Source of the DNA: Nitrospira sp. bin75
GTDB lineage: Bacteria; Nitrospirota; Nitrospiria; Nitrospirales; UBA8639
Assembly (NCBI GenBank): GCA_002238765.1
Contig: MPMZ01000036.1
Span: 1 to 32,180, forward strand
Reading direction: 5' to 3'
Length of the DNA: 32,180 nt
Both the position numbers and the translations under genes were made by a program. Positions 1,146 through 31,880 of this stretch are shown here, one piece after another. Each line of letters starts with the position of its first letter. The stretch's first letter is position 1. The notes beneath the pieces are model-generated. The model saw only the letters and a list, made by a program, of their open reading frames with translations. It made no database searches and was not told the DNA's origin.

Positions 1146-1820
1146 TCAGTGTTTCAAATTTTCCAAATCAGTTATCCATTGGTCGAAGATAGGACAGGAC
1201 TCTCGCATTTTATCGATCCCAATTTCTTGAGCGATATTGATGCCAGTCGTGGTCTTCTTGAATCGATCAGATAGGGCTTCCAGCCGCTTCGAAGGGGCAG
1301 TTTGGGACTTGTCGTTAATTTTCTCCGGCTCGCCACATTTCGAAAGAATCTTCTCCACATCTTTTTGCCGGACATTCAGCTTTTGCGCCAGGATCTTGGC
1401 ATCGCTGAATAGCAATGCCTCAAACTCGAACATCGAAACGTAAGGTATGAACCGCCGCTCTGAATCGTGATCCCCGAAGAGTTCATTGACCTGCTTCCGG
1501 GTCGCTTCGTTCATCACGCGGGCCTTCGACACTGGTTGGGTTTCGCGTTTTGACTTTTGGTACCCTGGCCAATCACTCTTAATACCATAGTAATCAACAA
1601 GCAACGTCAACCAGGTTTCTTTTCTTTGCTTGAGATGACGCTCAATGTCGTTTTGGGCACGCGAAAAACGAACGTCACCGCCATTTTGACCTGGCTTCGT
1701 CAGGATAGTCGAAGTCATGCATATTCTTGCCCGTGCCAGATAAGGAGACAAAAGAGACTCGATGAAGATCTTCTCGGTTGGGCCTTCTACCAGCGCCACC
1801 ACTTCAATGGGCCTACCCAT
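1146..1820 (-). CDS. DUF4276 family protein (TOPRIM-like), partner of the AAA ATPase
   Basis: This 224 aa protein shows the DUF4276 pattern: VALVEGPTEK at residues 8-17, an acidic strand LLVDYYG at 73-79, and FEFEALLFSD at 131-140. The acidic residues E12, D76 and E132/E134 are the likely metal-binding set of a TOPRIM-like fold. By family analogy it would be a nuclease effector controlled by the ATPase encoded immediately upstream; that role is inferred. I place the start at the ATG at 1820, because the ATPase stop lies within TATGGGTAG, giving an 8-nt overlap and likely translational coupling, with a GGGATGG purine stretch upstream. A longer in-frame start at 1880 would lie deep inside the ATPase gene and is less likely. 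Confidence 0.85.
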   Translation of the reverse strand: MGRPIEVVALVEGPTEKIFIESLLSPYLARARICMTSTILTKPGQNGGDVRFSRAQNDIERHLKQRKETWLTLLVDYYGIKSDWPGYQKSKRETQPVSKARVMNEATRKQVNELFGDHDSERRFIPYVSMFEFEALLFSDAKILAQKLNVRQKDVEKILSKCGEPEKINDKSQTAPSKRLEALSDRFKKTTTGINIAQEIGIDKMRESCPIFDQWITDLENLKH

Positions 1821-2922
1821 AAACAGGCCATCCCGAGATGACGTTTTTGTGCCAGAGTTCACCCACGGAATAGCTTTCAAGCCATACTCGATAATCTTTT
1901 TCGTTCAGACGTTCAAACGTGGATGCGCCATCTTTCCGGCTGACCACAATGACGTCTTTGACCGAGAAGTTGTCGATCAGTGCCGGTGACTGTGTCGCCA
2001 CGATGATCTGTGTGCGCTTGGAGGCGTTTTGAATGAGCTCTGCCAAAATGCTGATTGCCGCAGGATGGAGTCCCAATTCCGGTTCGTCGATAATCAGGGA
2101 AGAGGGGGGATCGGGTTGCAACAAGGCGGTTGCCAGGCAGATAAACCGGATACTCCCGTCTGAGAAATGATACGGCTGCATCGGGTAATCCGACCCCTTG
2201 GCTTTCCACGAAAGCTCAACTGTCTTTTTCCGCCCCAAGCGTTCCACGTCAAGAAGGAAATCATTCAAATAGGGGATCACCAATTTACAGGACTGGAGGA
2301 TTTCTTCATATGTTTCTTCGTCTTCGTTTTTTAGTTTCAGCAGGAACGGTGCAATATTCGAGGCATTGAAACGTAGCGTCTTGTTGTCCTGGACGATCTC
2401 CTCGTTCCGCATCGGGGCCTCTTCGCTGGTGTCATGAAAATGATAGATCTTCCATGAAGATATGGCGTCATAGACAGGCTTACTGTATTGGGCGTCGTGG
2501 TCCTTCCCTGATGCCTCTTTCACAAGCAAGGATTGTCCGTCAGAGTTGTCACCAGGAATGTTCCACCAGCCCGATCTTCCATGTTCATAATAGCGCTGTT
2601 CGTCTGTCAGCGCCCAGTCTCGCAATCGTCCGGGTTTAATCTTGAAACGGTACCCGCGCGGGCCGAAGCGAGTTTCAAACTCAAGACGCCGCGTGGTCTT
2701 TCGTCCATTAAACAGTAGGTCACTGATACCCCCGCTGCCTCGAATGTAGCTATCCAGGTTTCCGTTGATGATCGCTTGCAGCATGCGGAAAAATGAAATG
2801 AGATTGCTTTTTCCTCCGCCATTGGCGCCAATCAACACGTTCAGGCTTTTGAATTCGAAATCTTCCAGTTGGCGGATAGATTTGAATCCTCGTATCGTCA
2901 GTCTGTTTAAATGTTCTCCCAT
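1813..2922 (-). CDS. AAA family (ABC/SMC-like) ATPase
   Basis: This 369 aa cytoplasmic ATPase of the AAA_21/OLD-like group begins with a typical RecF/SMC-type N-terminus (LNRLTIRGFKSIRQLEDFEF). Walker A is GANGGGKS at residues 32-39. A degenerate signature region HFSDGSIRFICLATALL precedes Walker B SSLIIDEPELGLHP near 274-287, and the switch region is IIVATQSP near 306-313. I chose the ATG at 2922: it lies 1 nt after the stop of the upstream small gene and has GGAG about 9 nt before it. The gene overlaps the DUF4276 gene. ATPase plus TOPRIM-type nuclease pairs such as AriA-AriB of PARIS act as anti-phage abortive systems. By analogy this is probably a defence module, although the DUF4276 version differs from the DUF4435 protein of PARIS. 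Confidence 0.85.
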   Translation of the reverse strand: MGEHLNRLTIRGFKSIRQLEDFEFKSLNVLIGANGGGKSNLISFFRMLQAIINGNLDSYIRGSGGISDLLFNGRKTTRRLEFETRFGPRGYRFKIKPGRLRDWALTDEQRYYEHGRSGWWNIPGDNSDGQSLLVKEASGKDHDAQYSKPVYDAISSWKIYHFHDTSEEAPMRNEEIVQDNKTLRFNASNIAPFLLKLKNEDEETYEEILQSCKLVIPYLNDFLLDVERLGRKKTVELSWKAKGSDYPMQPYHFSDGSIRFICLATALLQPDPPSSLIIDEPELGLHPAAISILAELIQNASKRTQIIVATQSPALIDNFSVKDVIVVSRKDGASTFERLNEKDYRVWLESYSVGELWHKNVISGWPVYG

Positions 2923-2923
2923 T

Positions 2924-3145
2924 TTAACGCTCTCCGTCGTACGCAATTGTCATAGAACGTCTCGATGCCGGCGATGCGTCAGATCCCATGGGCTCGTGCT
3001 TGGTTTCGTACAACTCGACGAGGTCGGCCAGCACGTCGAGTTCATCATCTTCCCTGCTACCGGGCTTGGCATCCATCAACTCATCAATGCGGGCCAATGC
3101 GGCTTGATAGTCCGCTTCGGTACGGACAGGTTTGATCCTCTGCAT
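2924..3145 (-). CDS. HigA-like antitoxin N-terminal domain, lacking the HTH
   Basis: The 73 aa product starts MQRIKPVRTEADYQAALARI and continues DELMDAKPGSREDDELDVLA. This is the N-terminal module of the HigA-type antitoxins (COG5499). Those proteins normally run to about 120-140 aa with a helix-turn-helix at the C-terminus. Here the reading frame ends after a short unrelated tail (SPASRRSMTIAYDGER), and no HTH is found downstream because the ATPase gene begins 1 nt later. A good ribosome site (AGAGGTG) precedes the ATG. It could be a remnant, or a short regulatory partner of the ATPase unit. No HigB toxin is visible next to it. Confidence 0.65.
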   Translation of the reverse strand: MQRIKPVRTEADYQAALARIDELMDAKPGSREDDELDVLADLVELYETKHEPMGSDASPASRRSMTIAYDGER

Positions 3146-6948: not shown

Positions 6949-9390
6949 ATGGCTCTAAAGAAATCCCAACTCTACTCCTCTCTCTGGAAAAGCTGCGACG
7001 AGTTGCGAGGCGGCATGGACGCCTCGCAGTACAAGGACTACGTTCTAACGCTGCTGTTCATGAAGTACGTCTCGGACAAGCACGCTGGCAAGCCTGGCGC
7101 GCTCATCGAAGTGCCAGTAGGCGGCGGCTTCGCCGACATGGTGAAGCTGAAGGGCGACAAGGAGATCGGCGACAAGATCAACAAGATCATCGCCCGGCTT
7201 GCCGAGGCTAATGAGCTCAAGGGGGTCATCGATCAAGCCGACTTCAACGACGAGGGCAAGCTCGGTTCCGGCAAGGAGTTGCAGGACCGGCTCTCCAAGC
7301 TGGTCGCCATATTCGAGAGTCTCGACTTCCACGCCAACCGGGCCGAGGGCGACGACTTGCTCGGTGATGCCTACGAATATCTGATGCGGCACTTTGCGAC
7401 CGAGTCGGGCAAGAGCAAGGGGCAGTTCTACACGCCGGCCGAAGTCTCGCGCATCATGGCGAAGGTGGTCGGTATCGGCTCTGATACCCGACAGGATCAG
7501 ACTATCTACGACCCGACCTGTGGCTCCGGTTCGCTTTTGCTGAAGGCTGCGGACGAGGCACCGAATGGCATTACCGTTTATGGCCAGGAGATGGACAACG
7601 CCACCTATTCGCTGGCGCGGATGAACATGATCCTGCACAACCATCCGACCGCGGACTTATGGCACGGAAATACGTTGGCCGCTCCGTACTTCAAGAATCA
7701 GAATGGCAGCCTCAAGACCTTCGACTTTGCCGTCGCCAATCCGCCCTTCTCCGCCAAGGCCTAGTCCAGCGGTCTCAATCCGGCTCACGACGAGTACCGG
7801 CGCTTCGAATACGGCGTCCCCCCGGCCAAGAACGGCGACTACGCCTTCCTCCTGCATCTCATTACGTCGCTCAAGAGCAAAGGCAAGGGCGCGATCATTC
7901 TGCCGCACGGCGTACTGTTCCGTGGCAACAAGGAAGCCGACATCCGAAAGAATCTTATCCGGCGTGGCTTCATCAAGGGGATCATCGGCCTGCCAGCCAA
8001 TCTGTTCTACGGCACCGGCATCCCCGCCTGCATCCTGGTCATCGACAAGGAGAACGCCCACGCCCGCACCGGTATCTTCATGATTGATGCGAGCAAGGGC
8101 TTCCTCAAGGACGGCAACAAGAACCGCCTGCGCGCCCAGGACCTCCACCGGATCGTCGACGTGTTCAACCGACAGACCGAGGTGCCGCGCTATTCCCGCA
8201 TGGTGCCGGTGGCCGAGATCGCCAACCCCGCCAACGACTACAACCTCAACATCCCGCGCTACATCGATTCCAGCGAGCCGGAAGATCTACACGACCTCGA
8301 CGCACATTTGAACGGCGGCATCCCCGACCGCGACATCGATGCGCTCGACAATTACTGGACGGTCTTTCCCTCGCTGCGCCAGGCGTTGTTTGCCGGCAAC
8401 GGTCGTGCGGGCTACAGCGAGGCTCGAGTCGAGACGCCGCAAGTGAAGGCCGCCATCCTCAGTCATGGGGAATTCCAGTCGTACGAGGAGCGGGTCGCAA
8501 CAGTTCTCGACGGTTGGTGCCAGGCGCACGCGCCGGTTCTCAAGGGACTGGAGATAGACACCAATCCCAAGGGCATCATTCGCGCTCTGGCGGAAGATTT
8601 GCTCACGCGCTTCGCCGACCTGCCACTGTTAGACCCGTATGACGTGTATCAGCGGCTGATGGACTATTGGGATGAGGTGATGCAGGACGACGTGTATCTC
8701 ATCGTTACGGATGGTTGGGGCGAGGCCGCCAAGCCGCGCGGGATCGTCGAAGACAAAGACAAGAAGTTCAAGGAGACGCCAGACCTCACTATCAAGCGCA
8801 GGAAGTACAAGATGGACTTGATCCCTCCGGGGCTGATCGTCGCGCGCTACTTTGCCGATGAACAGGTCGCTATCGAGGAGCTACAGGCCAAGCAAGAGGA
8901 CGCGACCCGTGAGTTGGAGGAATTCATCGAAGAGTACACTGGCGAGGAGGGCTTACTGGAGGACGCGGTCAATGATAAGGGCAAGGTCACCAAGGGCGGC
9001 GTGATGGAGCGGCTCAAGGCCATCCGGTACGAGAAGGAAAGCGACGAAGAACACGACGCCCTCAAGCATTGTCGGACCCTGATTGAGACCGAGGCCGAAG
9101 CAGCCAAGGTCGTCAAGGAGGCCCAAGCCCGTTTGGATGAGCAGGTGCTGGCCCGCTATGGCGCACTCACCGAAACCGAGATCAAGACGCTGGCGGTCGA
9201 GGACAAGTGGTTTGCCAGCATCCAAGCCGTCATTAAGGGCGAAGTCCATCGGCTGACCCAGCAACTCGCCGGGCGCGTGAAGGAGCTGGAAGAGCGCTAT
9301 GTCCGCCCGTTGCCGGAGTTGGGACGGGAGGTGGAGGCGTTCGGCGCAAAGGTCGAGGGGCACTTGAAACGGATGGGGTTCTCGCTATGA
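6949..9390 (+). pseudogene. hsdM: Type I restriction-modification methyltransferase subunit, interrupted by an amber codon
   Basis: HsdM methylates adenine in the HsdS-defined site using S-adenosylmethionine. The N-terminal helical domain (KKSQLYSSLWKSCDELRGGM) is followed by GQFYTPAEVSRIM, the AdoMet motif DPTCGSGSLLLKA from residue 188, and the catalytic NPPF motif (ANPPFSAKA). Codon 272 (7762-7764) is TAG, and the same frame then continues uninterrupted to 9390 with perfect family sequence (SSGLNPAHDEYRRFEYGVPP, ILPHGVLFRGN, GLPANLFYGTGIPACI). Relatives have Trp at this place, so TGG to TAG is the simplest lesion. The full product would be about 813 aa, with a long coiled-coil-rich C-terminus. 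Stop and next start overlap as ATGA. It may be a recent nonsense mutation, a suppressible codon or a base-call error; the intact downstream frame argues against old decay. An internal ATG at 8080 could give a C-terminal fragment. Confidence 0.92.
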
Positions 9391-10553
9391 GTCAAACGTT
9401 CGATTTTGAGAATCTCGTCGAGTTGTGTCGGCGAACCCACGAGGAAACACGACGCTCGGCGTCGCACGCTGTTGACCGCTCACTTGTGGTGCGAAACTAC
9501 CTGTTCGGCTGGTATATCGTCGAGTATGAACAGCATGGCGCGGATAGGGCGAAATACGGAGCGCAGACCTTGAGAACCTTGTCGTCGGTGCTCAAGGCCA
9601 GGATTGGCCGCGGGTTCTCTGTGGATGCTCTGGAGCGGATGCGACGGTTCTATTTGCTCTACGGTCACATTCTCTCTGAGAATCCGGCGCGAGAGAAATC
9701 CGCGACACTGTTGCGGATTTCGGGTGGCCGGGTAATTTCTGAGACAGCGTCGCGGAAATTGCCCGACCCAGTGATGGAACTGCCGGAGATTCTGCAGGCT
9801 CTATCTGCACAATTAGTGAAGCGATTCACTCTCGGCTGGTCCCACTACGTCACCCTTCTGACCATCGACAGCGCAGAAGAACGCCGTTTCTACGAGCTTG
9901 AAGCAGTGGACAACGGTTGGAGTGTGCGCGAACTGGAGCGGCAGATAGCCAGCTCCCTGTACGAGCGGCTCGCGCTCAGCCGTGACAAGAAGGAAATTCG
10001 TCGACTTGCCAGCGAGGGGCAGTTGATCGAAAAAGCATCAGACTTGATCAAGAACCCCTTGGTGCTGGAGTTTCTCGGGTTGGAGGAAAAGCCCGTCTAT
10101 TCCGAGAACGAACTGGAAACGGCGATCATCGACCGGCTCCAACAGTTCCTGCTGGAGTTGGGCAAGGGATTCCTGTTCGAGGCGCGGCTGAAGCGTTTTA
10201 CTTTCGACAACAGTCATTTCCGCGTGGACCTCGTTTTCTACAACCGGCTGCTGCGCTGCTACGTGCTGATCGACCTTAAACGCGGTGAATTGACCCATCA
10301 GGACTTGGGACAGATGCAGATGTACGTCAACTACTTCGATCGTTACGTAAAGACTGAAGACGAACTTCCGACCGTCGGCATCGTACTCTGTGGCCGCAAG
10401 AACGACGCCGTGGTCGAACTGACCTTGCCGGAAGAAGCCAACATCTACGCATCAAAATACCAACTCTATCTGCCCTCGAAACAAGAACTTGCAGCCCAAC
10501 TGGAGAGCATCCAGAGAGAACTCGGAACCCAGGAAAGCGAAGACGATGAATAG
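9387..10553 (+). CDS. DUF1016 (YhcG-type) PD-(D/E)XK nuclease family protein
   Basis: This 388 aa protein has the two-part DUF1016 layout. A helical N-terminal domain (residues about 10-180, with FGWYIVEYEQHG, GRGFSVDALERMRRFY and GWSHYVTLL) is followed by a C-terminal PD-(D/E)XK nuclease-like domain. The active-site pattern is FRVDLVFYNRLLRCYVLIDL then KRG, with D281, D296 and K298. The family is often encoded within or beside type I RM loci, but its exact role is unsettled. Here it sits between hsdM and hsdS, overlapping both (4 nt upstream, 8 nt downstream), so it must be co-expressed with the methylase. A second, diverged member of the family lies at 30865-31880. Confidence 0.9.
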   Translation: MSQTFDFENLVELCRRTHEETRRSASHAVDRSLVVRNYLFGWYIVEYEQHGADRAKYGAQTLRTLSSVLKARIGRGFSVDALERMRRFYLLYGHILSENPAREKSATLLRISGGRVISETASRKLPDPVMELPEILQALSAQLVKRFTLGWSHYVTLLTIDSAEERRFYELEAVDNGWSVRELERQIASSLYERLALSRDKKEIRRLASEGQLIEKASDLIKNPLVLEFLGLEEKPVYSENELETAIIDRLQQFLLELGKGFLFEARLKRFTFDNSHFRVDLVFYNRLLRCYVLIDLKRGELTHQDLGQMQMYVNYFDRYVKTEDELPTVGIVLCGRKNDAVVELTLPEEANIYASKYQLYLPSKQELAAQLESIQRELGTQESEDDE

Positions 10554-11877
10554 CGGGCAAGGGACAATGGGTAGCGTCCTTGGAAATGGACGCCGTGCGC
10601 TAGCGGAAGAGGTGCCAGTGGGTTACAAGCGGACTGAGGTGGGGATTATTCCTGAGGACTGGATGGCACGGCATCTCGGTTCATGCCTGCGTTATGCTCC
10701 CGGATACGGAATCAATGCGGCCGCCGTTCCGTATGACGACAGATTACCGACTTACTTACGAATTACAGACATCAGCGACGATTGTCGGTTTCGGCCTTCT
10801 CCACGGGTCTCTGTCAGGAATTCAAGTGTGCCGAGGTTCTTCCTCAGTGAGGGTGATTTGGTTTTCGCCCGTACAGGAGCAAGCGTAGGCAAATCGTATC
10901 GCTATGACAAAAAAGATGGCCCATTGGTTTTTGCAGGATTCCTCATCCGTATAAGTCCAGATCCTGAGAAGCTTGAGCCAGCCTTTTTGGCATACTGCGT
11001 TCAGTCAAGACGTTATTGGGAATGGGTCGCAACTATGTCGATCCGAAGCGGTCAGCCGGGAATCAATGGACAAGAATACGCTATGTTCCAGATCCCGCTC
11101 CCACCCCCCTCCGAGCAACGTGCCATTGCCGAGGCGTTGTCGGATGTGGATGGGTTGCTCGCGGCGTTGGAGGCGCTGATCGCCAAGAAGAGGGCCATCA
11201 AGCAGGCCACCATGCAGCAACTCCTCACCAGCAAGACCCGCCTGCCGGGGTTCAGCGGGGAGTGGGAGACGACAACGGTCGGAGAAGTTGCGGATATAAG
11301 AAACGGTGCAACGCCAAGTACTCAGATCGGTGCCTACTGGAACGGGCCGATTCCGTGGTGTACGCCGACCGATATCACGGCTACGCCGGGGAAGTACCTC
11401 TGCGCAACAGAGCGGAGTATCACTGCGATGGGATTGGCGAATTGCGCGGCAAGCCTGCTTCCTGTTGGTGCTCTTCTCTTGTGCAGCCGCGCAACTATCG
11501 GGGAGATCAAGATTGCGGTTTCTTCGGTATGCACAAACCAAGGCTTCAAGTCGCTCGTCTGTAAAGACGGTGTATCCAATGAGTTTCTGTATTACCTGCT
11601 TTTGACACTCAAGCCGCAAATGATAGAGCGGGCCATAGGGTCAACTTTTTTGGAAATCGGCAAGCGTGATGTGACGTCAATCGAACTTTGTATCCCCACC
11701 TATGCAGAACAATGTGCCATTGCCACCGTCCTCTCTGATATGGACGCTGAGATCGCCGTGCTGGAACGACGTCGGGATAAGACCCGCGCCGTCAAGCAGG
11801 GCATGATGCAGCAACTCCTCACCGGCCGGGTACGGCTGGTTCAACTTTCTCGCTCCACGGAAGAGGCAGCATGCTGA
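10546..11877 (+). CDS. hsdS: Type I restriction-modification specificity subunit
   Basis: HsdS recognises the bipartite DNA target for the HsdM/HsdR complex. The protein of about 443 aa has two target-recognition domains. TRD1 (about residues 20-185) starts at GYKRTEVGIIPEDW. TRD2 (about 230-400) starts at LPGFSGEWETTTVGEVADIR. Each is followed by a conserved coiled-coil spacer: SEQRAIAEALSDVDGLLAAL and EQCAIATVLSDMDAEIAVL. The spacers share an exact 18-nt direct repeat, ATGCAGCAACTCCTCACC, at 11212-11229 and 11806-11823, the kind of repeat through which TRDs can be exchanged. I chose the ATG at 10546, overlapping the DUF1016 stop by 8 nt (ATGAATAG), with AGGAAAG upstream. Recognition sequence cannot be read from the protein alone. 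Confidence 0.93.
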   Translation: MNSGQGTMGSVLGNGRRALAEEVPVGYKRTEVGIIPEDWMARHLGSCLRYAPGYGINAAAVPYDDRLPTYLRITDISDDCRFRPSPRVSVRNSSVPRFFLSEGDLVFARTGASVGKSYRYDKKDGPLVFAGFLIRISPDPEKLEPAFLAYCVQSRRYWEWVATMSIRSGQPGINGQEYAMFQIPLPPPSEQRAIAEALSDVDGLLAALEALIAKKRAIKQATMQQLLTSKTRLPGFSGEWETTTVGEVADIRNGATPSTQIGAYWNGPIPWCTPTDITATPGKYLCATERSITAMGLANCAASLLPVGALLLCSRATIGEIKIAVSSVCTNQGFKSLVCKDGVSNEFLYYLLLTLKPQMIERAIGSTFLEIGKRDVTSIELCIPTYAEQCAIATVLSDMDAEIAVLERRRDKTRAVKQGMMQQLLTGRVRLVQLSRSTEEAAC

Positions 11878-12407
11878 ACATCTTCGCAAAATGTCTTTTG
11901 GTAGCGACATCCTTATCTCCTGTGCTGGGGGCCGTGGCCGTGAATCAATTCGAGCGTGGCAAGCCATGCACGAACTGGATCTGGTGGCTGGGGGGAGCTT
12001 TGTTTCTAGTGCTCTTGTGTGATGCCTTGTTAAGGTATGCGAAAGAGCACGCACAGAAGCAATTATTCTATATTAAGGAATTTGAACGCAAAGATCAGGA
12101 GATGCTCACATACCTGTTTATCTATCTGCTGCCGTTTATCCGATCAGAGAACTCGACGTTTGCCAATGAATGGATCACGAGTGTGTACATTCTAGCAATC
12201 ATTATCTTAGCCATTGCGTATGCCGATGCCTTCCATTTCAATCCGGTAATGCGTTTTCTAGGTTATCGTTTCTACGCTGTAAGAGACCGTGATGGAGTGT
12301 CCAATCTACTGATCAGCAAGACAGACTTGCGGAGACCCGACAAGGAGGTCCAAACGGTGGGACTCGCTCGGAACGTTTATTTACACATAGGAGAGCAGGA
12401 TGCTTGA
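11871..12407 (+). CDS. kwaA: KwaA-like membrane protein of a Kiwa-type defence system
   Basis: This 178 aa inner-membrane protein has four likely spans: residues about 4-25 (FAKCLLVATSLSPVLGAVAV), 36-55 (WIWWLGGALFLVLLCDALL), 80-93 (LTYLFIYLLPFI) and 103-121 (ITSVYILAIIILAIAYADAF), with a short cytoplasmic C-terminus. Size, four-helix layout and the gene immediately following (KwaB-like) match KwaA of the Kiwa anti-phage system, in which a membrane protein senses infection and works with a DNA-binding DUF4868 partner. The start overlaps the hsdS stop by 7 nt and the end overlaps kwaB by 8 nt. The identification rests on architecture and neighbourhood more than sequence motifs; it could be another small four-helix defence protein. 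Confidence 0.6.
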   Translation: MLNIFAKCLLVATSLSPVLGAVAVNQFERGKPCTNWIWWLGGALFLVLLCDALLRYAKEHAQKQLFYIKEFERKDQEMLTYLFIYLLPFIRSENSTFANEWITSVYILAIIILAIAYADAFHFNPVMRFLGYRFYAVRDRDGVSNLLISKTDLRRPDKEVQTVGLARNVYLHIGEQDA

Positions 12408-13284
12408 GAACTTCCATCTTGCGGCGATCATCAAACAAGGTGCCCAAACACGCATGCTACAGATCCCTTTGCATCAAGCGTTGCAGGACAGCCTCACAGC
12501 AGACTGGCAAAGCCAGTACGAGGCTTTTGTTGACCAGATAGATGAGATTGATTTCAACGTCGGGTACCAACCAGAGGAGCATGAGCGTTTTTGTCTGGCT
12601 GACTACGAACTGCCTGACTGGCTAGCCAAGGAAAATAGCCAGACCATCGCGAATCTTGATACGATCAACGAGAATGAGGCGTCGCTCGATTCCATTAGGG
12701 GCACGGTGGCATTTGCGCGAAATGACCAGGGCGCAGAATTGGTGCTGTTCCAAAACTTCACCCCTTCTCAGGTAATCCGACCGAGCAAATCTCTCTTCCT
12801 AGAGGCCGGCACCTATAAGAGTATAAAACGTCCGGGACTGACGCTGGGCGACAGATTAAGCGCTGTATATCAACGTGCCGAGTGTAAGCTGCTGTTCCAT
12901 AAGTTTCGTGCTGTCAACACTTTCCTTCCGCTATCTGATTTTTATAAGGAGGCATCGGAACAAGAGATTCGAGAAATATTGAATCACAAACTGCTCGAAG
13001 CTGAAGACGCAAATGCACTGGCGACCAGTGCCAACCAGTGGTTCCGTAAGCGATTCACTATGCTCAAAGATTCAGGCGTTCTTGATCGCTTCTCCGCCAA
13101 AGATATTCAATCGCGTTCCAAAGGATATGACGTCTCGATTCAAATCTTGAAGGGCAAGATAGTCTTTCCGTCTGACAAACTCGTGGCAAAGAAACTCTTG
13201 CAGTTTCTCAATGAGGAACTTTTCCGGGGAGCTATCACCAAAACGCTCTACGAGACCAATTCTAAAAGGCAAACCGATAAATGA
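12400..13284 (+). CDS. kwaB: KwaB-like DUF4868 protein of a Kiwa-type defence system
   Basis: This 294 aa cytoplasmic protein looks like a DUF4868 member. An alpha/beta N-terminal half contains AELVLFQNFTPSQVI and KSLFLEAGTYKSI. A segment AECKLLFHKFRAVNTFLPLS resembles the family's region where a nuclear/core strand precedes a helical repeat. The C-terminus LLQFLNEELFRGAITKTLYE and TNSKR fits the typical ending of the family. KwaB binds DNA and acts with the membrane protein KwaA. GGAGAGCAGG precedes the ATG, the gene overlaps kwaA by 8 nt, and its stop overlaps the hsdR start as ATGA. Codon use is visibly less GC-rich than in hsdM and hsdR, suggesting the pair entered as a unit. Family assignment is from recalled patterns, not a profile search. 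Confidence 0.65.
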   Translation: MLENFHLAAIIKQGAQTRMLQIPLHQALQDSLTADWQSQYEAFVDQIDEIDFNVGYQPEEHERFCLADYELPDWLAKENSQTIANLDTINENEASLDSIRGTVAFARNDQGAELVLFQNFTPSQVIRPSKSLFLEAGTYKSIKRPGLTLGDRLSAVYQRAECKLLFHKFRAVNTFLPLSDFYKEASEQEIREILNHKLLEAEDANALATSANQWFRKRFTMLKDSGVLDRFSAKDIQSRSKGYDVSIQILKGKIVFPSDKLVAKKLLQFLNEELFRGAITKTLYETNSKRQTDK

Positions 13285-16200
13285 CCACGGTCGGCCAGCG
13301 GGAGACCCTCACGCAGCGGTGCGTGGTCGGGTTCTTCAAGGACGCGCTCGGCTACGCTTATCTTGGCCATTGGCAGGATCGCGCCGACACCGGCAACGTT
13401 GAAAACGCGCTGCTCACCGATTGGCTGAAGCGCCAGGGACATGACGATAAGATCATTCCCAAGGTGTTGCGTGAGTTGGGCAATGCGGCCGCGCTCGGTG
13501 GCAGCAAGACTCTTTACGATGCCAACCGCGAGGTTTACGACCGGCTCCGCTACGGCGTGAAGGTCCAGCCGGGCGCGGGCGAGCAGTACAGCACTATCTG
13601 GCCGATCGATTGGACAAACCCTGGCAACAATGATTTCGCCATCGCCGAGGAAGTGACGGTTGCCGGAGAGAACACCAAGCGGCCGGACCTTGTGCTCTAC
13701 GTCAACGGCATCGCCTTTGGGGTGCTGGAACTGAAGCGTTCGACGGTGTCGGTGACCGAGGGCATCCGCCAGAACCTTGACAGCCAGAAAAAGGAATTTA
13801 TCGAACCGTTTTTCGCCACCGTGCAACTCGTGATGGCGGGCAACGACACCGAAGGACTGCGCTACGGCATGATCGAAACGCCGGAGAAATACTGGCTGCG
13901 CTGGAAGGAAGCCGAGGTCCACCCGGATGCCGCCGGCAACCCGCTGCTCCGGGAACTGAGCCAGCTCTGCGGCAAGGAGCGGTTGCTCGAGATCGTGCAT
14001 GACTTCATCGTCTTTGACGCCGGCGTCAAGAAGATCTGCCGCCACAACCAATACTTCGGCGTGCGAGCGGCGCAAGAGCGCGTCCAGCGCCGCGAGGGCG
14101 GTATCATCTGGCACACCCAGGGCAGTGGCAAGAGCCTGACCATGGTCTGGCTGGCGAAGTGGATTCGCGAGCACGTGACTGAAGGACGCGTGCTGATCAT
14201 CACCGACCGCACCGAGTTGGACGAACAGATCGAGAAGGTTTTCAAGGGCGTCAGCGAGAACATCTACCGTACGACGAGCGGTGCCGATCTGGTGCGCGTG
14301 CTCAACACGGGCGACGAGTGGTTGATAGGCTCGTTAATCCACAAGTTCGGCGTGTCGGAGGAAGGCGACATCGATGCTTTCCTCAAGGATATCCAAAGCC
14401 ATCTCCCGAAAGATTTCTATGCCAAGGGCGAGATCTTCGTATTCGTGGACGAATGCCATCGCACCCAGTCCGGCAAGCTCCATGAAGCGATGAAGGCGTT
14501 GCTCCCTGGCGCGATGCTGATCGGCTTTACGGGCACACCGCTGCTTAAGGCGGACAAAAAGCGGAGCATCGAAACCTTCGGGCCGTACATTCACACTTAC
14601 AAGTACGACGAAGCAGTGGACGACGGCGTGGTGCTGGACCTCCGCTATGAAGCGCGCGACATCGACCAGAATATCACCTCGCAGGCCAAGATCGATCAGT
14701 GGTTCGACCTCAAGACCAGTGGGCTGACCGACGTGGCAAAGGCCCAACTCAAGCAGCGCTGGGGCACGATGCAGAAGGTGCTAAGTTCGCGGGACAGGCT
14801 GGAGAAGATTGAAGCCGACATCTTGCTCGACATGGAGACGCGTGATCGTTTGAAGAGCGGTCATGGCAACGCGATACTCGTCTCGGACAGCATCTACTCC
14901 GCTTGCCGCTACTTTGATATGTTTCAGCGGACCAATCTGGCTGGCAAATGCGCCATTGTCACCTCGTACAGGCCGGCCCCGGCGGACATCAAAGGCGAGG
15001 AGACCGGCGAGGGGCTTACCGAGAAGCTGCTCCAGTACGACGCCTACCGAAAGATGCTGGCGGCGCACTTCAACGAGCCGGAAGACTCGGCGGTTCGCAA
15101 GGTCGAGCAGTTCGAGAAGGAAGTGAAAAAGCGCTTCATCAAAGAACCGGGGCAAATGAAGCTGCTGATCGTGGTGGATAAGCTGCTGACCGGCTTTGAC
15201 GCGCCATCGGCGACCTATCTCTACATCGACAAGCAAATGCAGGACCATGGCCTATTCCAGGCGATCTGCCGGGTCAACCGACTTGACGGCGAAGACAAGG
15301 AATACGGCTACATTATTGACTACAAGGACCTGTTCCGGTCACTCAAACAGTCCATTAAGGATTACACCGGCGAAGCTTTTGGCGGCTATGACAAGGCCGA
15401 TGTTGAGGGCCTCCTGAAGGACCGGCTACAGCAAGGTCGGGAGCTGTTGGAGGAGAGGCGCGAGGCAATCAAGGCGCTGTGCGAGCCAGTCGATCCGCCG
15501 TGTGACACTGCGGCATATCGGCGCTTCTTCTGCGCCGCAGAGAGTGGCAACGCCGGACAGCTCAAAGACAACGAACCGAAGCGCATAGCCCTCTACAAGC
15601 TGTGCGCGGCGTTCCTCCGGGCCTACTCCAACCTGGCCAACGAAATGCGGGAGGCAGGCTACTCCGACGCGGAGGCTCAGGAGATCAAAGCCGAGGTGGA
15701 CCACTACGAAAAGGTGCGCCAAGAAGTCAAGCTTGCCAGCGGCGATTACATCGATATGAAGATGTACGAGCCTGCCATGCGGCACTTGCTCGATACGTAC
15801 ATCCGCGCTGAGGAGAGCGAGAAGGTCTCGACCTTTGATGACATGACGCTGGTCCAACTGATTGTCAGGCGTGGTGAAGCCGCGGTCGAGGCGTTGCCTG
15901 AAGGCACCCGCAAGAATCGCAAGGCGGTAGCCGAGACCATCGAGAACAACGTGCGGCGTCTCATCATCGATGAGATGGTCGTCAACCCAAAGTATTATGA
16001 GAAGATGTCAGCATTGCTCGACGATCTGATCCTGCAACGCAAGCAGGAGGCTATGAACTACAAGGCCTACCTGACCCAGATCGTCGAGTTGACCAGGAGG
16101 ATTAGCGGTCAGGAGACTCAGGGAACCTACCCTTCGAAAATCAACAGCGCCGCGCTAAGTGCACTTTACGACAACCTCACGGAACCGGAAGCTTTGGCAG

Positions 16201-16424
16201 TCCAGGAACCGCTGGCGCGATATGGCAGTACATCGACCTTCGATCCCAGGGAAGAACAGGCCCTTGCTCTTGACCGAGCTATCCGCAATGTAAAAAAGGC
16301 GGATTGGCGGGGAAACAGATTCAAGGAACGCGAGGTCAGAAACGCCATCAAGTCAGAACTCGGCGATGACGAGGATCTCGTAAACTTGCTGTTCGAGATT
16401 GTGAAGGCACAGCGTGACTACTAA
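13281..16424 (+). CDS. hsdR: Type I restriction enzyme endonuclease/translocase subunit
   Basis: HsdR translocates DNA using ATP and cuts it when the complex meets an unmethylated site. The 1047 aa protein has an N-terminal PD-(D/E)XK nuclease (D136 in RPDLVLYVNG; E150 and K152 in GVLELKRS). The SF2 helicase motor follows: Walker A HTQGSGKS with K284, DECH box at 390-393 (FVDECHRTQ), motif III IGFTGTPLL, and motif VI FQAICRVNRLDGEDKEYGYI. A helical C-terminal domain probably docks on HsdM/HsdS. All key residues are present, so HsdR should be active. With hsdM interrupted, unmodified restriction would be dangerous, which hints that the hsdM stop is bypassed or is a base-call error. Length is normal for the family. 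Confidence 0.96.
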   Translation: MTTVGQRETLTQRCVVGFFKDALGYAYLGHWQDRADTGNVENALLTDWLKRQGHDDKIIPKVLRELGNAAALGGSKTLYDANREVYDRLRYGVKVQPGAGEQYSTIWPIDWTNPGNNDFAIAEEVTVAGENTKRPDLVLYVNGIAFGVLELKRSTVSVTEGIRQNLDSQKKEFIEPFFATVQLVMAGNDTEGLRYGMIETPEKYWLRWKEAEVHPDAAGNPLLRELSQLCGKERLLEIVHDFIVFDAGVKKICRHNQYFGVRAAQERVQRREGGIIWHTQGSGKSLTMVWLAKWIREHVTEGRVLIITDRTELDEQIEKVFKGVSENIYRTTSGADLVRVLNTGDEWLIGSLIHKFGVSEEGDIDAFLKDIQSHLPKDFYAKGEIFVFVDECHRTQSGKLHEAMKALLPGAMLIGFTGTPLLKADKKRSIETFGPYIHTYKYDEAVDDGVVLDLRYEARDIDQNITSQAKIDQWFDLKTSGLTDVAKAQLKQRWGTMQKVLSSRDRLEKIEADILLDMETRDRLKSGHGNAILVSDSIYSACRYFDMFQRTNLAGKCAIVTSYRPAPADIKGEETGEGLTEKLLQYDAYRKMLAAHFNEPEDSAVRKVEQFEKEVKKRFIKEPGQMKLLIVVDKLLTGFDAPSATYLYIDKQMQDHGLFQAICRVNRLDGEDKEYGYIIDYKDLFRSLKQSIKDYTGEAFGGYDKADVEGLLKDRLQQGRELLEERREAIKALCEPVDPPCDTAAYRRFFCAAESGNAGQLKDNEPKRIALYKLCAAFLRAYSNLANEMREAGYSDAEAQEIKAEVDHYEKVRQEVKLASGDYIDMKMYEPAMRHLLDTYIRAEESEKVSTFDDMTLVQLIVRRGEAAVEALPEGTRKNRKAVAETIENNVRRLIIDEMVVNPKYYEKMSALLDDLILQRKQEAMNYKAYLTQIVELTRRISGQETQGTYPSKINSAALSALYDNLTEPEALAVQEPLARYGSTSTFDPREEQALALDRAIRNVKKADWRGNRFKEREVRNAIKSELGDDEDLVNLLFEIVKAQRDY

Positions 16425-16440
16425 TGTTAGAGGCCGCCGT

Positions 16441-17148
16441 ATGGACGTGCGAGGGGTACCGGTGGAGGTGATCCGCAAGGACATCAAGAACCTCCACGTG
16501 GGAGTCTACCCGCCGAGTGGCCGTGTGCGGGTGGCGGCCCCGTTGTGGCTTGATGACAACGCCGTGCGGCTGGCCGTCATTTCACGCCTGGGATGGATTC
16601 GACGACAGCAGATTGGCTTCGAACAGCAGGATCGCCAATCTCAGCGGGAGTTCGTCACTGGTGAGAGCCATTATTTTGAAGGGCGACGCTACCGGCTCGA
16701 TGTACTTGAGCGCGCTGGTCGACCGACTATTCGCCTACTTAACAACACAACGATGGAACTGTGTGTTGCCCCGGGTGCTGACCGGGCCGCACGGGAGGCT
16801 GTGCTGCATCAATGGTATCGCCGCCAACTCTGTGACCAGTTGCCGGTGCTTCTCGCCAGTTGGGAACGGAAAGTTGGCGTGACTGTCGATGATGTGCGGA
16901 TCAAGAAGATGAAGACTCTCTGGGGCTCTTGCACCGTTGAAGCCAAACGCATCTGGATAAACCTCGAACTGGCCAAAAAACCAACTTCGTGCTTGGAGTA
17001 CATCCTTGTGCACGAAATGGTTCACTTGATCGAGCGTAGTCACAACGATCGTTTTCGGGATCTGATGGACAGGCTCATGCCTCAGTGGCGCGTGCATAGG
17101 GATGAACTCAACCGTGCGCCGCTTGCACACATGGACTGGCGTTACTGA
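16441..17148 (+). CDS. YgjP-like (DUF45) zinc metallopeptidase-domain protein
   Basis: This protein of about 235 aa has the YgjP/DUF45 layout. The N-terminus VRGVPVEVIRKDIKNLHVGV is followed by YPPSGRVRVAAPLWL, then KKMKTLWGSCT and the zinc-binding HEMVHLIERSHNDRF. The metal ligands are probably H191, H195 and H201, with E192 as the catalytic residue. Such proteins very often close type I RM operons, and their role there is not established. The ATG at 16441 has AGAGG 7 nt before it and gives the usual N-terminus. A GTG at 16414, overlapping hsdR by 11 nt with GAAGG upstream, is an alternative that would add nine residues. It is the last gene of the operon. Confidence 0.9.
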   Translation: MDVRGVPVEVIRKDIKNLHVGVYPPSGRVRVAAPLWLDDNAVRLAVISRLGWIRRQQIGFEQQDRQSQREFVTGESHYFEGRRYRLDVLERAGRPTIRLLNNTTMELCVAPGADRAAREAVLHQWYRRQLCDQLPVLLASWERKVGVTVDDVRIKKMKTLWGSCTVEAKRIWINLELAKKPTSCLEYILVHEMVHLIERSHNDRFRDLMDRLMPQWRVHRDELNRAPLAHMDWRY

Positions 17149-24761: not shown

Positions 24762-26051
24762 ACGACGTCGAGCAAGACGTCCTTTTCATGAGACAGGCCC
24801 TCAGGCTTGCGGCTCGCGGCCGTAGGACGGTTCGACCGAACCCCATGGTCGGTGCCGTGATCGTGGCGGACGGCGCGGTCGTCGGGGCCGGTTATCACCG
24901 GCGGGCCGGTGGCCCCCACGCGGAAATCGTCGCGTTACGACAGGCCCGGACCCGGTCACGCGGCGCGACCCTCTATACCACCCTCGAACCCTGTTGCCAT
25001 ACGAATAAGCGTACCCCGCCCTGCGTGCCGGCGATTCTGGCGTCTGGCGTTCGTCGCATCGTTCTGGCGATGCGCGATCCCAATGTCCAAGTGGCGGGGC
25101 GCGGGATCCGGCAACTCCGGCGGGGGGGGGCGGCCCGGGGGGGCGGGGGGCCCCGGAAGGGAGCGGGTTCGTCGCATCGTTCTGGCGATGCGCGATCCCA
25201 ATGTCCAAGTGGCGGGTCGCGGTATCCGGCAACTCCGGCGGGCGGGGCTGTCCGTGGACGTCGGGTGCCTCGGTAAGGAAGCGGCTCAGCTCAATGAAGT
25301 CTATCTGCATTGGATGAAAACCAAACGGCCATTCGTCGTGCTCAAGGCAGCGATGACGCTGGACGGCAAGATTGCCACGGCGTCCGGTGAATCGCAGTGG
25401 ATCACGGGAGCAAAGGCGAGGGCGCACGTCCATCAATTGAGGAGCCAGGTCGATGTCATTGCCGTGGGAGTGGAGACGGTTCTGAAAGACGACCCGCAAT
25501 TGACGGTCAGGCTTTCCGGGGGGCAGCGGTCTGCAACCGGCGTCCGTCAACCGGTGCGGCTGATCGTCGACAGTCGTCTGCGGACTCCGTACAAGGCGCG
25601 CGTGCTTCAGGGCATCGAACAGGCCCCTACGGTCATTGCCACCACGAAACTGGCTGGTCCCCGGAAAGTTGAACGGTTACGAAAGATGGGTGTACAGGTT
25701 CTGGTGTTGCCTCGAAAAGGAAACCGTGTCTCTCTCGACAAGTGTCTGCAAGCCCTTGGGAACATGGGGATCGTCAGTATGCTTCTTGAAGGAGGGAGTG
25801 AGTTGAACGCCGCTTTTTTGCGTGCCGGTCTGGTGAACCGGGTGGCTCTATACGTGGCTCCGTCCTTGTTGGGTGGACAACTGACCAAAGGCCTGTTGGG
25901 AGGTCCTTCGCCCGGACGCTTGGCTGAAATCCTACCGGTGTCCAATCTTCAGGTTCAAACTTTGGGCGAGGATATGCTTGTCACGGGAAACGTTGTATCC
26001 CTCCCCTTTGTAAGTGGGCGCATTTCCGAAGAGGGAATGCGGGTGGGGTAG
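24758..26051 (+). pseudogene. ribD: Riboflavin biosynthesis deaminase/reductase RibD, frame broken by a 118-bp duplication
   Basis: RibD converts the GTP-cyclohydrolase product to the ribitylamino-uracil in two steps. The deaminase domain has RPNPMVGAVIVADG, GGPHAEIVAL and TTLEPCCHTNKRTPPC, with zinc ligands His and two Cys. The reductase domain has VVLKAAMTLDGKIATASGES, QWITGAKARAHVHQLRSQVD and LLEGGSELNAAFL. Between them 25049-25166 is duplicated at 25167-25284, and 118 nt shifts the frame. Removing one copy restores a continuous protein of about 391 aa. The first copy degrades into G/C runs, so this is probably an assembly fault and the gene intact. The GTG start at 24758 overlaps the ppdK stop. 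The last ~18 residues (VSLPFVSGRISEEGMRVG) come from a dispersed repeat beyond the usual end near MLVTGNV. Confidence 0.9.
25049..25284 (+). repeat. 118-bp perfect-length tandem duplication inside ribD, probable assembly artefact
   Basis: Copies occupy 25049-25166 and 25167-25284 and align without gaps. They are identical for about the first 50 nt. After that the first copy shows more and more substitutions, nearly all to G or C (for example CGGGTCGCGGTATCC becomes CGGGGCGCGGGATCC), ending in long G runs. Rising one-way substitution toward one end is what a low-quality read end would give, not what mutation would give. Confidence 0.85.
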
Positions 26052-27199: not shown

Positions 27200-30154
27200 T
27201 CAATCTTCCATATCCAAAAACTCAAATCGACCATCACGGAGCAGGTTCTCACGGGCGCGTTCGGCGTTCTGACGCACGCCCTCGTCGCTGCTTTCAAGAC
27301 CCGCTTTCAAGATAGTGCGCGCCCTGGCGGTTTCAACAATGTATATCTTGTGCTTTAGAGCACAATCGGTAAATTTGGCAAAGCATTCGACCACCTTTGC
27401 AGTGTGATCTACAAGCATTCTAACTAATGGATCTAATCCCCTATCGTTACCCGAGGGTGCTAAGTTTTTCGATATGCAGACATCCAAGACCTTGGAATAG
27501 GCTTTCAACCGCCATTCAGCATCCAGGCATTCGGCTTCCAACCAGAATGAAAAATTCTGTAGTTCCGTCGCCTCTCCAACTTCAAACCGCCAATCGAAGA
27601 ACTCTATAATCTTTTTATGCAAAGCATCATCAAGAGTTTCGCCGCTGTTCCGTAACCATTTGCCGACATCGTCGAACAAACTAGCCCAGTAGATTCGATT
27701 GTCATCTGTGTTCTGGTAATATCGGTCAAGCAGGCTTTTTTCTCCGTTGAGTGGGTACACTCCCGACAAATAATAGGTGAACAGGTGTCGTCCGAGAATC
27801 TCAATCGGCTTTTCGCCAAAGCTTTCTTGATCTTTGAATTTGCCCAGATGTTCCAACGCAAAATCGAAATCATCGCGAAGAATATTGAATATTTGCTTGA
27901 ACGGGCGGTTAGAGCAGACGAAGCCCTTGAATGCCTCTATCCATGCAGGCCATTTACCTTGTGGGAAAAAGTCTGATTTGTGCTCGGTTGCCCACGTCTC
28001 ATCAAGACTGAAAATGTCTCCGTAGTGCCTTCCCAGGATTGCGTGTTCAGGCAGTGATAAAGAATATTCCGTTTCGGAGGCGAAGCGTTTTTCAAGAATC
28101 GTCGTTACTATGGCAACGTCGGTCGTTTGGTCATATCTCCGCAACCAGAGACCGAAATTGACGAGACTACGTAGCGCGCGGCTTCTTGTATTGCTAAAAG
28201 TCTCTGTGAGTTGGTCGTCGTGGTGCGAAAGGACCGGCTTATTCCGATCCAGTCTCCAATCAAATTGTGTACATAGTATTTCCAAAAGCTTGGCTAGTTG
28301 CCTCTGCGCAGAACTTGGTACGTCTTTTTCTATACAGACGCCTACAAAGTCCCCCACTGCCCGCCGTGAGCTATGCCAATAGGGGTGCTCCCGGGACTCG
28401 TCGCTGAGTCCTGTGCCATCTTCCGGGTCTTGGTCCTGGTGCGAAAGTACCCATTCGCAAAACATTAGCCATTCGTTGAGTTTGTCGAAGTTTTTCGCCT
28501 GTACACGTTGTTTCATTTCATCGACCATAGCCCGGATGTAAATGGGCCGTTCGATCTGTTCTCGATTGTCTAGCCAAAATCTGAGTCTGTTCGCATCCGG
28601 GATGATTGATTTACTGAAAACGCTTTGGAACGCTTCTGCAAGGGCTGCGATATTGATCTCTGCCAACCAGTCATCTTTATCGTGATGTTCTTCCTGCCAT
28701 TCGTTGATGTAGGTGAGGAGTTCTTCGTCGATGAGGGTTGCCAGCTCCTCAGGAGATCTTGGACTATTTTGGGTCACGTATCCGCTTTGTGCTCTGATGA
28801 CTGAATAGTCGTTATCGGAAATTTGGTCGTTGGCTTCAATTTCCAATTCTTGGAAGTACGCCGAGAATTCGCCAAATAGTACAGAAACAAAGGGTTTGAA
28901 CTGTATCCTGTGGAAATACCGCTGACGTTGTATGAATAGCTCTTCGGTGAATTGATCGCCCATCGACTCACGGTAATTTGTCTTCGACGGGCCGCTACGG
29001 ATGGCATTGAAAATTCGTGTACGCTCTTCTCCCGTGAGCAACTCCGTGCCAAAGTGTTCACAAGCGATCCGTATCATTTGCTGAAATTCGTAAGGGTATT
29101 TCCATCGAGCGTAATCTTCATGTGCCAGGATCAACGCCCTGATCCAGGGCTTGGTTTGCTTGTTTGGGTGCAGGGCGTAAAGGTGCTGGCGAAGGCGTCT
29201 GAAAACCTTCCAACGCTGCTTGCATAGAACTTTATCCAACTGCGTGATAGATCCAGAGGATTTTTGGTAAACCTCCTCGCATGCAAAAATCAGGGTATGA
29301 ATAAGTGCTGTCTTGGCGTCATGGTAATCGCTATCTTGTTCATCGAGCCGAGGCCACCAAATTTCAGATGCGTCTTCGTCTTTGCCCTTGGCAAGTTCAT
29401 CCTGGTCCTTGTGCAAACGAATCATATCAGCCATAGCGTCAATAAGGATGCAGGCAACTTTGAGTGGTTCCTTTTCAATCAGCGGACGGACACCTTTCTC
29501 TAATACGTTCACATATTTCCATGCATCGAATCGTGGAACAGGTTTCAGCGGTCGAGGCAAATTGAACCCCTCTTTAAAATAGTCATCGCTTGTCTTCTGT
29601 GACGTTGTCAGGTCATCCGGGTTCACCTTCCGTCGCGCTTGTTTGTATTCTGACTGAGGGTCAGGCACAAACTTGACGAGTATCTGTAAAAGCTCCAAAG
29701 CAGCCTGTATTTGATTCTCTGCTGTCCAATGGGCTAACAAATCTGCGTATCTATCTGCGTACCACTGGTACTCTATGCCGGTATATTCAAGTATCTTGGG
29801 CTTAAGTTTCGTGGATTGTTTGCCGTGGAGTCTCAGTGCAATATCCAGAATGTCATCGTAGACCTTTGGGTTATCGACTTCTGGAAGCTGGGACACGATT
29901 TCAATGACTTCATCCGGCGCATGATCGGACATGTTCTTAAGGTATTGAAGTTCTGGCCAAACCGATAATTGTATATAACCGTCAGGCAAATGTCTGATTC
30001 CCGGCGGAGATTGAAAATAGCCCCGCCCAGCCAACGGCTGAATCCACAGGGGATTTTTCAGCCGAGAGAAGAAATACTGGCGGTCAGTTTCCTTCTTTAC
30101 TGACGCCAGGGCCTTCTCTATCATTTCATCCGTTGGTTTCTTCCAGGATTTCAT
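27200..30154 (-). CDS. Large unrecognised protein of a putative new defence-like cassette
   Basis: I do not recognise this 984 aa protein. It has no signal peptide or membrane span and no Walker, nuclease or HTH motif that I can find. It is rich in Trp, Asp, Glu and Arg and appears almost wholly helical, with amphipathic segments about 30-40 residues apart, as in an alpha-solenoid scaffold. Examples are ILEYTGIEYQWYADRYADLL, WIRALILAHEDYARWKYPYE and EHPYWHSSRRAVGDFVGVCI. AAAGGG precedes the ATG, and the first 29 nt overlap the 3' end of the upstream 222-237 aa gene, so the two are translationally linked. The base composition is clearly more AT-rich than in the neighbouring housekeeping genes, suggesting transfer. 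A large helical sensor or scaffold working with the small partner is an inference only. Confidence 0.85.
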   Translation of the reverse strand: MKSWKKPTDEMIEKALASVKKETDRQYFFSRLKNPLWIQPLAGRGYFQSPPGIRHLPDGYIQLSVWPELQYLKNMSDHAPDEVIEIVSQLPEVDNPKVYDDILDIALRLHGKQSTKLKPKILEYTGIEYQWYADRYADLLAHWTAENQIQAALELLQILVKFVPDPQSEYKQARRKVNPDDLTTSQKTSDDYFKEGFNLPRPLKPVPRFDAWKYVNVLEKGVRPLIEKEPLKVACILIDAMADMIRLHKDQDELAKGKDEDASEIWWPRLDEQDSDYHDAKTALIHTLIFACEEVYQKSSGSITQLDKVLCKQRWKVFRRLRQHLYALHPNKQTKPWIRALILAHEDYARWKYPYEFQQMIRIACEHFGTELLTGEERTRIFNAIRSGPSKTNYRESMGDQFTEELFIQRQRYFHRIQFKPFVSVLFGEFSAYFQELEIEANDQISDNDYSVIRAQSGYVTQNSPRSPEELATLIDEELLTYINEWQEEHHDKDDWLAEINIAALAEAFQSVFSKSIIPDANRLRFWLDNREQIERPIYIRAMVDEMKQRVQAKNFDKLNEWLMFCEWVLSHQDQDPEDGTGLSDESREHPYWHSSRRAVGDFVGVCIEKDVPSSAQRQLAKLLEILCTQFDWRLDRNKPVLSHHDDQLTETFSNTRSRALRSLVNFGLWLRRYDQTTDVAIVTTILEKRFASETEYSLSLPEHAILGRHYGDIFSLDETWATEHKSDFFPQGKWPAWIEAFKGFVCSNRPFKQIFNILRDDFDFALEHLGKFKDQESFGEKPIEILGRHLFTYYLSGVYPLNGEKSLLDRYYQNTDDNRIYWASLFDDVGKWLRNSGETLDDALHKKIIEFFDWRFEVGEATELQNFSFWLEAECLDAEWRLKAYSKVLDVCISKNLAPSGNDRGLDPLVRMLVDHTAKVVECFAKFTDCALKHKIYIVETARARTILKAGLESSDEGVRQNAERARENLLRDGRFEFLDMED

Positions 30155-30864: not shown

Positions 30865-31880
30865 TCACTCCTCTTCACGTATCTCGATCAGCCGCTTCTC
30901 CCGCTCAATTTCCGCAATAAGTTCTTCCTCACTTGGCAGAATCAGGCGGTATTTTGAGGCAAAAAGTTGTTCGCTACCTTTGAGTACCGAGAACTTGACG
31001 ATGGTTTCATCTTTGGAAGTGCAAAGAATCAGGCCGACGGTGGGGTTGTCGTCCTCGCCGCGTTTAAATTCGTCGAACATTCGTACATAGGTATCCATTT
31101 GCCCGATGTCCTGATGGGTCAGTTGATCGGTTTTGAGGTCAATCAACACAAAACACTTGAGCAGGTAGTTGTAGAACACCAGATCAATGTAAAAATGGTT
31201 GGTTTCCGTACTGATGCGGTATTGTCTGCCGACAAATGAAAATCCTTTGCCGGCTTCAAGCAAAAACTGGGAGAGGTTATTGATAATGGCGGTTTCCAGG
31301 TCTTTTTCTTTGGGAGCAGTGTGATCGGGGAGTTGCAGGAATTCCAGTACATACGGGTCTTTGATAAACGATCTCAACTCGCTTTTGGGGGCCTTACCGG
31401 GAGACATGATTGTTTCAGCCGGTTCCTGCGAAGAAAGCAGGCGTTCGTAATAGAGGGTGTTGAGTTGCGCTGAAGTTGTCGGACGCTCCACCCTTGCTGG
31501 ACGGCTTCTGCAAGGTAGTAGATTCTCGCTTTCGCGTTTTCTAGCCGCATGATCAACCGGTTATGACTCCAACTCAATTTGCTACACGGTGTGTAGCAAA
31601 TGTCTTTATTGGGGTAGGTAAGGTAAAATTGGCGGAAGTTGCGCAGGTTAGCATAGGAAAATCCTTTGCCGAATTCATGGGTTAAGTTTCTTGATAAATT
31701 TTCCAGCAGTTTCTTGCCATACTCTGCCTTTGTCTTGCCCCCCTGTTCCTCTTCCACAATTCGTTTGCCGATCATCCAGTAGGCTTCGACCATGGCACGG
31801 TTGATTTCAGAATAAGCCCGGTTGCGAGCATTTTGAAGAATCTGTCTGATATCTGAATAAAAAGTTGTCGGATCCTTCAT
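30865..31880 (-). pseudogene. Second DUF1016 (YhcG-type) nuclease gene, frameshifted
   Basis: The N-terminal part (31880 down to about 31466) encodes the DUF1016 helical domain: AYWMIGKRIVEEEQGGKTKA, FGKGFSYANLRNFRQFYL and AVQQGWSVRQLQRN. The C-terminal part (about 31461 to 30865) encodes the nuclease-like domain in another frame: NTLYYERLLSSQEPAET, YIDLVFYNYLLKCFVLIDLK and GQMDTYVRMFDEF. A single missing base around 31461-31466 would join them into a normal protein of about 338 aa. The active-site residues of the nuclease part are intact. The start overlaps the stop of the transposase remnant (ATGA) and sits after an AAAGGTG purine tract. It is a diverged paralogue of 9387-10553. The frameshift may be real or a base-call error. 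Confidence 0.85.

Follow-up and report, generated by a model that had tools for sequence, protein, structure and literature searches.

Type I systems with a broken modification subunit

In type I restriction-modification systems, HsdM is required both for the binding of HsdS to DNA and for cleavage by HsdR (PMC8084154), and restriction and modification alike depend on it (PMC12707154). A single-base nonsense mutation in a type I HsdM of about 800 residues, the kind of lesion considered here, was described for Pseudomonas aeruginosa PAO1161, in which the 792-residue HsdM (PA2735) is cut short by Q209*; cells of this strain are viable and r- m-, and restriction was restored when hsdM was restored (PMC6945700). 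PAO1161 is a laboratory restriction-defective derivative with a proven phenotype and revertants, whereas the present hsdM is known from its sequence alone. Similarly, viable cells of group A Streptococcus strain 854 were reported to carry spontaneous hsdM lesions, namely a nonsense codon (codon 380 of 526), deletions and insertions, and normal growth was also seen in a separate strain with a constructed hsdM deletion (PMC8084154). These lesions, however, were found in laboratory-transformed strains and belong to a short HsdM family.

The locus analysed here lies on a contig of a draft Nitrospira genome (Nitrospira sp. bin75, contig MPMZ01000036.1), of which positions 1 to 32,180, the whole stretch of DNA that was analysed, are referred to as the window. 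It holds an hsdM gene interrupted by an in-frame amber codon and, in keeping with the preliminary description of this DNA, in which hsdR appeared fully intact, an intact hsdR with an open frame. The same description expected restriction in the absence of methylation to be lethal, a premise that is true for type II systems and fails for type I systems, in which HsdR needs the HsdM2-HsdS core and viable hsdM nonsense mutants have been published. Since HsdR cannot restrict without this core, truncation of HsdM would lead to a restriction-minus, modification-minus cell; a type I system that loses its methylase subunit loses the use of its nuclease too, and there is, contrary to a common assumption, no paradox in finding hsdR intact next to a broken hsdM.

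The interrupted hsdM gene and its operon

The operon runs in the order hsdM, DUF1016/YhcG nuclease gene, hsdS, kwaA, kwaB, hsdR and YgjP-like peptidase gene, with the following features.

6949..9390, + strand: hsdM, type I modification subunit, 813 codons, interrupted at codon 272 (TIGR00497, PF02384, PF12161, PADLOC PDLC03027)
6949..7764, + strand: truncated hsdM product of 271 residues, with the N-terminal domain, DPTCGSG and NPPF kept (translation)
8080..9390, + strand: 436-aa ORF from the first in-frame ATG, GTG or TTG past the hsdM stop (translation)
9387..10553, + strand: DUF1016/YhcG PDDEXK nuclease gene between hsdM and hsdS (PF06250, PF17761, PADLOC PDC-S02)
10549..11877, + strand: hsdS, specificity subunit, start approximate, frame open from 10489 (PF01420 in two stretches, PADLOC Specificity_I)
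11871..12407, + strand: kwaA (Kiwa), in the interval between hsdS and hsdR (PADLOC KwaA PDLC00221, E 2e-40; NF041622, E 2e-14, under its curated cut-off)
12400..13284, + strand: kwaB (Kiwa, DUF4868), in the interval between hsdS and hsdR (PADLOC KwaB PDLC00222, E 4.5e-60; NF041623, E 2e-8, under its curated cut-off)
13281..16424, + strand: hsdR, restriction subunit, 1047 aa, intact (TIGR00348, 540 bits; PF04313, PF18766, PF22679)
16414..17148, + strand: YgjP-like metallopeptidase gene at the operon end (PF01863)

The stop was confirmed as TAG at positions 7762-7764 of the window, where it forms codon 272 of the reading frame 6949-9390. On translation, this frame was found to have stops only at codon 272 and at its natural end (codon 814), with the 813 codons otherwise open, and both flanks of codon 272 aligned without a gap to close homologues, bearing out the earlier statement that the frame is perfect on both sides. 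The codon aligned to position 272 was TGG (Trp) in all 98 scored homologous loci, drawn from many phyla, and the Trp column was invariant in a 17-sequence alignment in which the window row was entered with TAG as W. The preliminary description had thus been correct in placing the amber codon on a conserved Trp and in the motif with which homologues continue. The nearest genes (93% protein identity) were those of G278 and G199, two genomes of the same genus, and both were intact, with TGG at the site. One G-to-A transition (TGG to TAG) suffices and would explain the stop, in support of the origin first proposed. As read from the sequence, the TAG is not a chance break of an open reading frame, since the frame around it is perfect over 813 codons and homology continues in full downstream. 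As expected of a pseudogene, the disabling change is absent from close homologues and the remaining frame is intact.

When read through the TAG, the hsdM product matched TIGR00497 with 277.9 bits, above the cut-off of 242.75, and carried the N6_Mtase (PF02384) and HsdM_N (PF12161) domains of a type I HsdM; the PADLOC model MTase_I (PDLC03027) matched residues 1-812 with 1331 bits. The truncated product retains DPTCGSG and NPPF, which we take to be the AdoMet and catalytic motifs, respectively, of gamma-class N6-adenine methylases, and by its sequence it ends four residues past NPPF, with most of the methylase domain and the C-terminal region lost. Rescue by re-initiation as a split HsdM was considered unlikely, with no start codon soon after the TAG: the next one lies about 105 codons downstream, and a product re-initiated there would be without residues 273-377. 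Complementation by another hsdM of the genome was also considered, and exchange with this HsdS would be unlikely, the paralogues sharing no more than 46% identity over the main match.

The remainder of the operon appeared undamaged. The frames of hsdR, hsdS, kwaA, kwaB and the DUF1016 gene are open, the start of the latter overlapping the hsdM stop (ATGA). HsdS contains two target-recognition domains (the two PF01420 stretches), and HsdR combines the HSDR_N nuclease with a SWI2/SNF2 motor (PF04313, PF18766 and PF22679, with TIGR00348). The full set of full-length subunits that marks an active type I system is nevertheless incomplete, with hsdM, read by the standard code, ending at codon 272 of its 813.

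Read-through, base error or mutation

Read-through or recoding of the amber codon, whether by a suppressor tRNA, by pyrrolysine or through leaky decoding, would give full-length HsdM and a working system, at a perhaps reduced or regulated level. The perfect frame past the TAG, which is under purifying selection, and the intact hsdR, hsdS and Kiwa genes would fit such decoding. Nevertheless, a search of the genome for an amber suppressor tRNA, a check proposed in the preliminary description, found none with a CUA anticodon among the 47 tRNAs detected (genome 97.8% complete), and release factor 1 was present and intact. Pyrrolysyl-tRNA synthetase was absent, the best match (22 bits) being sub-threshold, and sub-threshold matches to the same model were obtained in 12 of 14 control genomes too. 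Additionally, TAG was found to be the normal terminator of 5 of the 15 genes checked in the window, glyS among them. Pyrrolysine or a change of code was ruled out by these three results on the release factor, the synthetase and the use of TAG as a stop. None of the 98 scored homologues has TAG at the position of codon 272, which leaves no conserved recoding signal and, with TGG in every one of them, rules out a conserved recoding site. Read-through is accordingly rated very unlikely, and even less credence is given to its weakest form, in which near-cognate tRNAs would decode the amber codon inefficiently, with no dedicated suppressor, and a trickle of HsdM would leave the system weakly on.

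The age of the change was addressed through selection on the codons after the stop. Over codons 273-812, 14 non-synonymous and 29 synonymous changes were assigned to the window lineage with two close relatives as references, giving an omega of about 0.15, which is no higher than in the relatives (Fisher p 0.59); relaxed selection was thus looked for in these codons and not found. Similarly, hsdR was found to be constrained (omega 0.145 against G199). Since selection past the stop is not relaxed, hsdR is constrained and hsdS, kwaA and kwaB are open, the hsdM change would be recent, or else the base is wrong; the missing downstream decay is equally expected in both cases.

The main rival to a real mutation, and a serious one, is therefore an error in the draft genome (115 contigs) through sequencing, assembly or a mixture of strains, with the true hsdM intact and carrying TGG, although we regard it as rather unlikely. 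The ordinary purifying selection on the codons past the TAG is what such an error would predict, and other genes of the contig point the same way. This same contig carries the only ribD of the genome, which a tandem duplication of 118 bp (25049-25284, + strand) interrupts; at 25117-25166 the first copy has degenerated towards G and C, whereas a single full-length ribD was found in all 13 other genomes of the genus. Because a real loss of riboflavin synthesis is unlikely, the ribD break is probably an assembly or sequencing artefact, and the contig would then hold at least one. A second DUF1016/YhcG-like gene (30865-31880, - strand) consists of two overlapping frames, which is consistent with the loss of one base near 31460. 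Together, the ribD artefact and this frame-broken gene raise the odds of a base error in hsdM. Nevertheless, an isolated G-to-A change differs in kind from the ribD artefact, which combines a duplication with changes towards G and C, the long genes of the contig are intact (hsdR, ppdK with 956 aa and a 984-aa gene), and the genome is 97.8% complete and 1.8% contaminated.

Lesions of type I and DUF1016 genes in relatives also weigh against an error. In G141 (L083), hsdM has an in-frame TGA (aligned to residue 288), hsdR is frame-broken and hsdS also looks frame-broken; the frame of hsdM is broken in G123 and has an internal stop in L167, and G187 retains a C-terminal remnant of hsdM only, with a frame-broken DUF1016 gene. 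Some of these lesions may themselves be assembly errors.

The reading that we favour, and consider probable, is a real and recent G-to-A nonsense mutation in hsdM that switched off the type I system, the recent date explaining why the downstream genes are undecayed. Following such a transition, translation of HsdM would end after residue 271, just past NPPF; without full-length HsdM, the HsdM2-HsdS core would neither form nor bind DNA, the intact HsdR would never be loaded onto DNA, and the cell would be restriction-minus and modification-minus without self-damage. This predicted r- m- state follows from established type I biochemistry and the published hsdM nonsense mutants. Two of the three options offered in the preliminary description, failure of the complex and a base-call error, are thus retained as readings, whereas the third, read-through, found no support; any explanation beyond a nonsense mutation, an error or read-through is given a negligible probability.

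Under either leading reading, mutation or error, the hsdM stop is an ordinary defect of a known kind, because an intact cutting subunit cannot act without the methylase. It is of little importance beyond annotation: the hsdM entry ought to carry a flag for disruption or a possible sequencing mistake, and this locus is no ground for attributing an active type I system to the genome.

As a special cause of the transition, we also considered that a methylated cytosine had been deaminated. The ancestral CCTGG at codon 272 provides a context of the Dcm type, and two C5-methylases, both with Vsr partners, are encoded in the genome; of the 43 sites at which a transition would give a stop, however, only 5 lie in such a context, and this special cause was set aside, ordinary deamination explaining the transition as well as methylated-cytosine deamination does. 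The C5-cytosine methylases and Vsr-type endonucleases are located at L181 and L182 (contigs C6 and C22 of the same genome), and on contig C6 one 525-aa ORF encodes the C5-methylase and the Vsr domain as a fusion.

Kiwa genes within the operon and other defence-like genes

The most useful by-product of the analysis, and more interesting than the hsdM stop, is the Kiwa pair kwaA-kwaB inside the hsd operon. The two genes stand next to each other, as in Kiwa, by the PADLOC models, and the NCBIfam matches fall under the curated cut-offs. An extra defence module within an hsd operon is known from EcoprrI with prrC (PMC3874165). The guests here are instead kwaA-kwaB and the DUF1016 nuclease, and the likeness is one of gene arrangement alone, with no regulatory link implied. 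No obvious report of Kiwa nested in a type I hsd operon was met in the literature searched for both, the coverage of which was partial, and this counts as weak evidence only.

Comparable intervals were observed in other genomes. In Salinisphaera orenii (L099), the order is hsdM, a 441-aa gene in the hsdS position, kwaA, kwaB, a 208-aa gene, a 1035-aa gene (hsdR) and a 242-aa gene. A kwaA fragment lies 3' of hsdS at a contig edge in G278 (L080), and the corresponding place in the operon of G199 (L081) is taken by a different, 536-aa gene; a YgjP-like gene follows hsdR at its 3' side in G199 as well. Further defence-like genes lie elsewhere on the contig of the window, at 1146-2946 (- strand) and 27200-30154 (- strand): PADLOC identified a pair of the HEC-01A/B type, and a protein of 984 aa matched Dsr1 over part of its length (E 2.5e-22).
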